Origin: Chloroflexia bacterium
Lineage (GTDB): Bacteria > Chloroflexota > Chloroflexia > Thermomicrobiales > UBA6265
Direction of reading: 5' to 3'
NCBI GenBank assembly: GCA_013696525.1
Contig: JACCYK010000465.1
Coordinates: forward strand, 1-14,296
Length of the DNA: 14,296 nucleotides
Positions 11,497-13,333 of this stretch are shown here, piece after piece. Positions within the stretch are counted from its first letter, which is position 1. Each line of letters starts with the position of its first letter. The position numbers and the translations under genes are program-made. A model generated the notes under the pieces. The model had not been told where the DNA came from and made no database searches. It saw only the letters and a program-made list of their open reading frames with translations.

Positions 11497-12543
11497 ATGG
11501 CCGCAACGGTGAGGGGTAGGGGAGCGAACGACGAGGCTGACGGCGGCGCCCGCGTCGTCCCCACGGGGGCCGCACCGGCGCCTGGACCGTGGATTGCCCG
11601 GCAAGCGGTCCTGCCGTCGTTCGGACCGGTGGTGCGGCGGGGGAGCGACGATGATTTTGCCCATCCGGCGGAGCGGGAGCTGGCCCGGGTTCTCACGTTT
11701 TACGGGGTGCGCTGGGTGTATGAGCCGACCACCTTCGCCTTGCGCCGCACCGGCGACGGCGGATCGGCCGCGTTTTTCACGCCCGATTTCTATCTGCCCG
11801 ATCACCGGCTGTACATCGAGCTGACCACGATGCGGCAACGCTTGGTGACCCGCAAGAATCAGAAGCTGCGACGCCTGCGAGCGCTGTACCCCGCGGTGGG
11901 GATCAAGCTCCTGTACCGGCGAGACTATCAGCAATTGGTCGATGCCTACGAACCGGCCAAGGCAGACCCCGATCAGGACCGGATTGGCCCGATCGTCTAT
12001 CCAGCGTCCGTGATCGCGGCCCGAATCGAAACCCTGGCGGGCCAGATCGCGGCGGATTTCGCGGTCGCGGGGCCGTCGTGGTCAACCCGGTCACCGGTGC
12101 TTGTCGGCGTCGGCCAGGGCTCGGACCGCTTCCTGTCGGCCCTGACCGCGGCGCTCACGCACCGTGGCGTCGAGTATGGCCAAGACCGGATCGAGCTTAC
12201 CCGGTATGACCCGGTTGGCGACGGCCGGGCCCGAGTGCGGCGAGCGCCACACCTCGACCTGTCCGGACGGCGCGTCCTCCTGGTCGAAGACGTGGTCAGC
12301 ACCGGCTTGAGCCTAGCCTATCTCGTCGCCTGGTTGCGACGGCGCGGCGTCCGCGACATCACCGCCTGCACCCTGCTCGATCGCACCGCCGCCCGCCTCG
12401 TGGAGGTTCCGGTCCGTCATGTCGGCTTCGAAGTATCGGCCGCTCTGCTTGCCGGGTTTGGCCTTGGATTACGCCGGCAGTTTAGCGAGTTGCCCTATAT
12501 CGCGGCGATCGCCCCCGCTTCGCTTCCCCGTTCGTCCGTATAA
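11497..12543 (+). CDS. PD-(D/E)XK-like domain fused to an HPRT-like phosphoribosyltransferase
   Basis: A 348-aa two-domain protein. Residues about 56-150 resemble a PD-(D/E)XK nuclease fold: AERELARVL (E59/E61), then FFTPDFYL (D97) and LYIELT (E108), followed by a basic helix (TRKNQKLRRLRALYP). The lysine expected two residues after E108 is T110. Residues about 165-345 resemble hypoxanthine phosphoribosyltransferase: LVGVGQGSDRFL (pyrophosphate loop), the PRPP loop VLLVEDVVSTGLSLAYL (E264, D265), CTLLDR, VRHVGFEV and ELPYIAAI. Compared by eye with classical HPRT, the catalytic-base Asp of the PRPP loop is S268, the purine-contact Lys is R296 and the late metal-binding Asp is about G324, so ordinary purine salvage is uncertain. 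ATG 11497 has GGGGAAGG just upstream; an open frame to 11365 is unlikely to be coding. It lies 49 bp upstream of the membrane-protein gene, which is probably cotranscribed. Confidence 0.75.
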   Translation: MAATVRGRGANDEADGGARVVPTGAAPAPGPWIARQAVLPSFGPVVRRGSDDDFAHPAERELARVLTFYGVRWVYEPTTFALRRTGDGGSAAFFTPDFYLPDHRLYIELTTMRQRLVTRKNQKLRRLRALYPAVGIKLLYRRDYQQLVDAYEPAKADPDQDRIGPIVYPASVIAARIETLAGQIAADFAVAGPSWSTRSPVLVGVGQGSDRFLSALTAALTHRGVEYGQDRIELTRYDPVGDGRARVRRAPHLDLSGRRVLLVEDVVSTGLSLAYLVAWLRRRGVRDITACTLLDRTAARLVEVPVRHVGFEVSAALLAGFGLGLRRQFSELPYIAAIAPASLPRSSV

Positions 12544-12592: not shown

Positions 12593-13333
12593 ATGGAATC
12601 GACCACGCCGCAACCGGTTGAACGTCGCGGGGCGCCAGCGAAACGGGCGCCCCGGCCGGTCAAGCTCTGGTCCTGGCCGAAGGTGATCTTCTATTTTCCG
12701 TTGATGGTGGCGTCGTTCGTCTGTGCGATCGGCTCGACCTTTTGGCCCGATCGGGCGGTAACCTGGGGGACCATCTTCGTCATCGTGTTCCTGGTCAACA
12801 CGGTGATCATGGGCTTCGATTTCCCGCGCACCTCATCCCTCAACCTCGTGCTCTTCATCATGGTGGTCCTCTTGGGCGGATTCTTGGTCAATCAGCAGGT
12901 CTACACCTTCTGGGATGGTTTGCAGACTATCACCGCCAGGGTCCGGCCCGAAGCGAACAACCAGTTCTACTGGCTGTTCGGCGGCATCTTTGCCGTCGTC
13001 TTCCTCATCGTCTGGCTGATTGACTTCCGGTTCAACTACTGGTTGATTTTCCCCAACGAGATCATCCACCGGCACGGCTTTCTCGGCAGCGTCGATCGCT
13101 ATCCGGCGCCCGGCCTCGAAATGAAGTCGGAGATCACCGATGTCTTCGAGTACGCGATGCTGCGTTCCGGTCGATTGATTATCCAACCGACCAAGGGGCC
13201 GGCGATCGTCCTGGACACCGTGATGAATATCGATCGCAAACAGGTGCAGATCCAGCGGTTGCTGGATGCCCTATCGGTCGAGATCGTGCCGGGTGAGGTT
13301 CATCGCCAGGGGGGAGAGCCGAGCCCGCGATAG
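12593..13333 (+). CDS. Four-helix membrane protein with C-terminal soluble domain, unknown function
   Basis: A 246-aa inner-membrane protein. A basic, Pro-rich head (residues 1-30) suggests an N-in orientation. Hydrophobic segments lie at about 31-51, 59-76, 84-101 and 125-153. The C-terminal part (about 154-232) is soluble and starts LIFPNEIIHRHGFLGSVDRYP, then RLIIQPTKGPAIVLDTV and IDRKQVQIQRLLDAL. The alternating strand pattern followed by a helix recalls bacterial PH-like membrane-anchored domains, which is an inference from shape. No catalytic motif is visible. ATG 12593 has GGGGA five bases upstream; the open frame back to 12419 overlaps the previous gene and is rejected. It is probably the second gene of a unit with the phosphoribosyltransferase-like gene. 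No function is assigned. Confidence 0.8.
   Translation: MESTTPQPVERRGAPAKRAPRPVKLWSWPKVIFYFPLMVASFVCAIGSTFWPDRAVTWGTIFVIVFLVNTVIMGFDFPRTSSLNLVLFIMVVLLGGFLVNQQVYTFWDGLQTITARVRPEANNQFYWLFGGIFAVVFLIVWLIDFRFNYWLIFPNEIIHRHGFLGSVDRYPAPGLEMKSEITDVFEYAMLRSGRLIIQPTKGPAIVLDTVMNIDRKQVQIQRLLDALSVEIVPGEVHRQGGEPSPR

Follow-up and report, generated by a model that had tools for sequence, protein, structure and literature searches.

Bacillus PurR carries a phosphoribosyltransferase (PRT) domain which is without activity and binds phosphoribosyl pyrophosphate (PRPP) and (p)ppGpp (PMC8789054). The subject here is a gene for a fusion protein of 348 residues from a 14,296-nucleotide stretch of a Chloroflexia bacterium (contig JACCYK010000465.1, assembly GCA_013696525.1; this whole stretch is called the window). 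The two proteins share the combination of a DNA-binding-type domain with a PRT-like domain; PurR has its own PF09182 domain, whereas the window protein has a restriction-endonuclease-like fold instead, and a Pfam scan gave no PF09182 match in it. From the hypoxanthine phosphoribosyltransferase (HPRT) enzymes (TIGR01203; T. thermophilus 3acb, E. coli 5knx) the window protein differs in its replaced catalytic Asp, flexible-loop Ser-Tyr and late Asp, and it carries an extra N-terminal domain, the ELTT domain. In T7 endonuclease I (PF05367; 3cae, 1m0d, 2pfj) and PHROG 9019, an E...PD...E-x- pattern and the residues following it align with ELTT in one profile match. Unlike T7 endonuclease I, ELTT has Thr in place of Lys and is a chromosomal family linked to HPRT. 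The CRISPR ancillary nucleases Can2 and Card1 have a CARF domain as their sensor. These nucleases (8q41, 6xl1) are also among the closest known systems, and the partner domain of the ELTT protein is a PRT. Searches of an open-access library gave, judged by title, no description of an HPRT/endonuclease-domain fusion of this type. The gene and its domains lie as follows.

11497..12543, plus strand: coding sequence of the ELTT-PRT fusion protein, window-type 'S' clade, 348 aa (open reading frame and translation; 120 homologs)
11656..11949, plus strand: ELTT domain, residues 54-151, restriction-endonuclease-like fold of T7 endonuclease I type (profile, PHROG and structural matches)
11989..12516, plus strand: PRT domain of HPRT fold, residues ~165-340 (family and PDB profile matches)

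The ELTT-HPRT family and its member in the window

ELTT and HPRT belong together in a large, unnamed family, which occurs as adjacent genes or as one protein in many Chloroflexota and whose HPRT part is canonical in most of its types. A query with stand-alone ELTT gave 5,337 protein matches; with a canonical fusion as query, at least 7,991 of 7,998 candidates were found at E <= 0.001, a count which may include HPRT-only relatives. The genome survey covered Chloroflexota, and names from Actinobacteria/Actinomycetota also occur among the protein matches. Where listed relatives have a name, it is mostly hypoxanthine phosphoribosyltransferase, phosphoribosyltransferase or hypothetical protein. Fusion into a single chain occurs often; the 120 best-scoring relatives found with a canonical fusion are all 301-321 aa long, with a PRT half that reads L-K-G, S-S-Y, E-D, D (119/120), T-G, K and D.

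An even draw of 400 genomes of the phylum Chloroflexota contained 147 with an ELTT match, 14 of them with weak matches only (E 6.5e-11 to 7e-4; 13 of the 14 in frames of more than 900 aa). An ELTT frame of less than 300 aa was present in 59 genomes, and for these the position of HPRT was compared, by eye from the coordinates, in sets of 50 and 8 genomes, with G471 (stand-alone ELTT) left out. In 37 of the 50 and 5 of the 8, HPRT came after ELTT, on the same strand and no more than 500 bases away. Nine others of the 50 had no HPRT nearby, one had HPRT about 2 kb away and three were cut at contig ends; there was no HPRT near ELTT in the remaining three of the 8 (G184, G063, G068). Of 11 mapped pairs, 7 have the two frames overlapping by 4 bases. 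No HPRT besides the ELTT-linked one exceeds the cut-off in 20 of 23 genomes of family f33 (the other three are cut by contig ends), so that in f33 a core salvage enzyme comes with an unexplained nuclease-type partner. The same holds for G165, G177, G194 and G186.

The window protein combines an HPRT fold, spanning about residues 158-342, with, on the combined evidence, a nuclease-type fold. Residues ~165-340 match Pfam Pribosyltran (E 5e-11) and PDB 3acb (E 4.5e-20), and the TIGR01203 score of 82.9 bits falls short of the cut-off of 150. Residues 1-160 match no Pfam or NCBIfam family at E <= 10. With regard to a role in anti-phage defence, the PADLOC models gave weak matches only, of 9-14 bits (PDC-S69, E 0.0074; PsyrT, E 0.079).

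Several variants of the architecture were seen along the way. Four of four scanned fusions of 469-480 aa (L059, L060, L132, L133) are three-domain GAF-ELTT-HPRT proteins with the catalytic Asp kept, and they come from several genomes of the phylum. At L056:5071-5880, L057:4450-5199 and L058:4573-5322, ELTT is followed by a different C-terminal part, with no adjoining HPRT; in this part a weak, below-cut-off match to Mu_transpos_C_2 was found in the two proteins scanned (L056, L057). At L126:5404-7638, the ELTT gene lies between its linked HPRT and another HPRT-like gene, which are about 1 kb from each other and on opposite strands.

Catalytic residues of the HPRT half

The residues of the PRT domain that matter for the comparison with HPRT enzymes are these.

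12283..12312, plus strand: 5'-phosphate (PRPP) loop V263-S272, VEDVVSTGLS, with S268 at the catalytic Asp position (alignments)
12382..12384, plus strand: R296 at the purine-contact Lys position (120/120 window-type homologs)
12466..12468, plus strand: G324 at the late Asp (human Asp193) position (variable among homologs)

The catalytic Asp (human Asp137) is absent from the window protein, which has S268 there, as do 110 of 120 homologs with Ser; the flexible loop reads T-R-Y where canonical rows mostly have S-S-Y. For a wider comparison 75 PRT rows were aligned. L142, which lacks the PRPP-loop columns, was dropped from the tree and the counts, L110 (two broken frames) has no row, and L046, L047 and L062 were counted as linked pairs although the script had labelled them 'alone'. 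The catalytic position is Asp in 14/14 linked pairs, 6/6 fused proteins of 'D' type and 21/21 other HPRTs. It is Asn in 16 of 17 rows of the N group (Thr in the other), and Ser in 15 of 16 rows of the window (S) group (Asn in the other); five of these 16 retain the late Asp. Every row of the window group is from the window's own family; among the 17 N rows, 16 are from its order (Thermomicrobiales) and one, L061, is from a different family of the phylum. A tree of 74 PRT rows puts S (100/100) and N (99/91) each on one side of a branch; the ELTT tree keeps S together (100/97) and not N. As judged from these alignments and trees, the ELTT-linked PRT domain is shown to have lost its predicted catalytic parts stepwise within the window's order, and we infer that the canonical HPRT form is ancestral. 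Such an ordered loss within one order offers a graded set of natural proteins, running from enzyme to presumed sensor, each of which can be tested in turn. Lys at loop I (Q207 in the window protein) was set aside as evidence since many canonical rows carry Asn or Thr there.

What the window clade has retained differs from what it has lost. In human HGPRT the 5'-phosphate is held by the backbone nitrogen of Asp137 together with Thr138, Gly139 and Thr141 (PMC2228302), and S-T-G-L-S of the window loop keeps those contacts. Conservation across the 120 window-type homologs was taken as the frequency of the commonest residue, averaged over each segment. It is 0.83 for the 5'-phosphate loop, 0.82 for the purine strand, 0.81 for residues 320-326 and 0.75 for loop I, against 0.62 for the whole PRT domain and 0.59 for the flexible loop. 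C291, R296, R300, F311, G320 and G322, and likewise G270, are kept in at least 98%. In a smaller set of 16 S, 17 N and 41 canonical rows, the flexible loop compared with the PRT mean at 0.52 vs 0.58 (S), 0.49 vs 0.80 (N) and 0.68 vs 0.65 (canonical). These values show that in the window clade the predicted 5'-phosphate loop, purine strand and loop IV are conserved and the catalytic flexible loop is not. Mean pairwise identities of ELTT and PRT are 62.7% and 41.8% in S, 71.1% and 69.8% in N, 65.5% and 56.3% in D, and 59.8% and 54.6% in pairs; ELTT is thus the more conserved domain, by a wide margin in the window clade and only just in N.

A separate, canonical HPRT is also at hand. In the window's own genome (78.6% complete) it adjoins a tilS-like gene on G000:C139 and is followed by the first part of an ftsH-like gene (both read by eye), and besides the window gene there is an 'N'-type ELTT-HPRT on C292. 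All 8 window-type genomes tested have a separate HPRT over the cut-off. The first-pass annotation had placed D97, E108, T110, S268, R296 and G324 correctly; its view that the HPRT half is without its catalytic residues is borne out by S268, the flexible loop and the late Asp, and the separate hpt gene which it proposed to look for is the one beside tilS. Its use of R296, Arg for Lys, as a further sign does not hold, this replacement not being diagnostic.

The nuclease-type half

By sequence profiles the nearest relatives of ELTT are phage T7 endonuclease I and Holliday-junction resolvases. The ELTT profile matches PDB 3cae (T7 endonuclease I) at E 1.7e-5, and PHROG 9019 (Holliday junction resolvase) and PHROG 945 (endonuclease) are matched by 61 of 61 ELTT members. 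The predicted ELTT structure and its structural matches are consistent with a restriction-endonuclease-like core fold; although the sequence profile does find T7 endonuclease I, this enzyme was not among the 50 best rows of each PDB structural listing. Each half of the ELTT-PRT protein has a known fold, and the ELTT domain is outside the Pfam and NCBIfam models in the scans made, none of the proteins scanned giving a match above cut-off. The best scanned relative reached 25.1 bits with PF05367 (phage endonuclease I) against a cut-off of 29.1, and the ELTT domain of the window protein had no match to PF05367 at E <= 0.1.

Residue counts were taken from three lists of 120 top-scoring proteins each (window-type, stand-alone ELTT and canonical fused type), so more distant ELTT relatives may differ at these positions.

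11671..11673, plus strand: E59, acidic residue of helix A (360/360 listed relatives; aligned with a Glu of T7 endonuclease I)
11782..11787, plus strand: P96-D97, PD half-motif (D97 in 359/360; aligned with PD of T7 endonuclease I)
11818..11829, plus strand: E108-L109-T110-T111, (D/E)XK half-motif with Thr replacing Lys (E108 and T110 in 360/360)
11854..11865, plus strand: K120-N-Q-K123 in helix B, candidate migrated catalytic Lys (both Lys in 360/360; parallel in COG4636)

The acidic residues PD...(D/E) of the PD-(D/E)XK superfamily are present in the window ELTT domain as E59, D97 and E108; the T7 endonuclease I residue aligned with E59 is one which we take to be Glu20. K120 and K123 stand 12 and 15 residues past E108, inside a helix (114-130) of the predicted model. 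Relatives outside ELTT have E-x-K at the half-motif (T7 endonuclease I, a Gordonia phage, a Streptomyces plasmid, a DnaE intein). Three of the four such relatives aligned for this read E-V-K-G, namely the Gordonia phage 'Holliday junction resolvase', the Streptomyces plasmid open reading frame and the Miltoncostaea dnaE intein-like sequence; a crAss-like phage protein reads E-V-D-G. Since Thr is found in 360/360 ELTT proteins and E-V-K-G in these outside relatives, Thr in place of Lys is a mark of the ELTT family in the sample studied. In the COG4636 / PD-EXX-K putative nucleases (PMC551604), Lys is likewise absent from ExK and a conserved Lys lies in the adjacent helix, with Glu111 and Lys127 in the modelled site of all3650. 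There the Lys follows the Glu by 16 residues, compared with 12 and 15 in ELTT.

A PD-(D/E)XK-type fold ahead of an HPRT fold had been proposed in the first-pass annotation, and sequence profiles and predicted structure agree with it; the ELTT-type domain which it suspected in front of other HPRT-like proteins turns out to belong to a real and large family. The Thr for Lys which it counts among the replaced residues is not special to this protein; Thr is constant in the 360 listed relatives. Since these relatives also retain the acidic residues and have a pair of invariant Lys in helix B, the replacement is no proof of lost activity. The two halves have had different histories, the PRT half decaying in this lineage and the ELTT half strictly kept. 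The suggestion that the protein may sense or process nucleotides or nucleic acids is reasonable as a hypothesis.

Matches to mobile elements were also seen, 16 phage and 5 plasmid records matching ELTT. A phage or plasmid origin of ELTT was considered and dropped, these record matches being distant (best E 6e-6) except for Thermomicrobium roseum, in which a fused ELTT-HPRT gene lies on a 918-kb plasmid record; its product (WP_012643103.1) is annotated simply as hpt. L156, the dnaE of Miltoncostaea oceani, contains an apparent intein (by eye) with an endonuclease domain that is a PD-(D/E)XK relative of ELTT with E-V-K-G.

Proposed function, alternatives and gene neighbourhood

With a probability of roughly 0.5, we propose that the PRT domain of the window protein is a non-catalytic ligand-binding domain which would control a nucleic-acid-binding and possibly nucleic-acid-cleaving ELTT domain. 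ELTT would ordinarily work together with HPRT, and the window protein would be a derived member of this family in an order where a second, ordinary HPRT is present, in several genomes beside tilS- and/or ftsH-like genes. On the model of Bacillus PurR, its PRT domain would sense PRPP, (p)ppGpp or a purine nucleotide and thereby control the ELTT domain. ELTT in turn would bind, and perhaps cut, structured nucleic acid with a metal held by E59, D97 and E108, and K120 or K123 of the next helix would stand in for the classical Lys. Its relatives are annotated as a salvage enzyme; the window protein may instead be a nucleic-acid protein under nucleotide control, and possibly a second origin of a PurR-like regulator. 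Its PRT sequence is compatible with loss of catalysis, with ligand binding putative. A more tentative extension takes ELTT-HPRT as a whole to be a widespread system of two parts, as yet without a name, whose HPRT-type domain would read the PRPP or purine-nucleotide status and so gate a T7-endonuclease-I-like nuclease with a relocated Lys; the window protein would then be a purely signalling form that has given up salvage and kept the ligand gate and the nuclease-type domain.

Several observations weigh against a ligand-sensing PRT domain. E264, the ribose-contact Glu, is Glu in only 49 of 120 homologs, so PRPP binding may be lost, and loop III in the smaller set is less conserved in S (0.72) than in canonical rows (0.87). 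The placement of S in the PRT tree is unsure because its rows have long branches. Among 63 mapped loci (at least two places are included twice, L007/L094 and L008/L103) no neighbour of ELTT other than HPRT is widely shared, and no regulated pathway is indicated. The non-synonymous rate (dN) of PRT is 1.7 to 3.7 times that of ELTT in 6 of 6 close pairs, which would also fit a PRT kept mainly as a scaffold. That the PRT is only a scaffold or dimerisation platform, with ELTT cutting or binding nucleic acid constitutively and without a small ligand, draws further on this faster evolution in the window clade, on the loss of several PRT pocket residues, on the genomes with no HPRT near ELTT (9 of 50 and 3 of 8) and on the different C-terminal part in L056-L058. 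A mere scaffold would, however, hardly account for a 5'-phosphate loop, purine strand and residues 320-326 well above the PRT mean, or for G270, R296, R300, G320 and G322 at 98% or more, and we regard it as rather unlikely. Somewhat less doubtful, and differing from a ligand-controlled ELTT protein only in leaving out cleavage, is a dead ELTT nuclease that binds structured nucleic acid in a PurR-like ligand-responsive repressor or attenuator; the near-invariance of the acidic residues and the two helix-B Lys goes beyond what binding alone would need, and the Lys of COG4636 is proposed to have moved to a neighbouring helix.

It is improbable that the PRT domain has kept an enzymatic role with altered chemistry, for instance as a nucleotide hydrolase or as a phosphoribosyltransferase that is slow or of different specificity. 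Its conserved purine strand and phosphate loop would suit one, and HPRT mutants of the invariant Asp do fold and crystallise (PDB titles 1i0i, 1i0l, 1i13, 1i14), but the catalytic Asp is replaced in 16/16 rows, the late Asp also in 11/16, and the flexible-loop Ser-Tyr is gone. Least probable of all is a functionless PRT domain simply degrading after gene duplication, which the fast PRT evolution in the window clade might suggest. In four same-genus genes the ratio of non-synonymous to synonymous rate (dN/dS) is 0.09-0.45 for PRT and 0.03-0.11 for ELTT, with dS near saturation and one ELTT pair undefined, and C291, R296, R300, F311, G320 and G322 are held across the 120 homologs; both speak against this reading. 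Intact frames are no separate evidence here because only intact open reading frames entered the comparison.

The window gene is not placed between tilS and ftsH; its neighbours are a divergent lpdA (Pfam) and a frame without a Pfam match. Motif scans near six canonical genes (L134-L139) found FtsH-like sequence downstream in five and TilS-like sequence upstream in two, L137 being at a contig end. Window-type copies lie near lpdA and ATPase genes within related genomes only. 'N'-type ELTT-HPRT genes follow a gene for a (2Fe-2S) ferredoxin domain, and a FixX-like ferredoxin is often close by (L157:5175-7790; L114, L115, L122; L044), again within related genomes only. No operon pathway was inferred, since the ferredoxin, lpdA and ATPase neighbours are shared by related genomes only. 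The 'N'-type gene faces mutM in Thermomicrobium roseum and a mutM-like gene (by eye) in L114, L115 and L122. Directly downstream of the window gene, at 12593-13333, lies a predicted membrane protein (by eye) with no Pfam match at E <= 0.01, and at 32-2125 on the minus strand a 697-aa frame has a DoxX-like membrane part and repeated thioredoxin-like domains (by eye).
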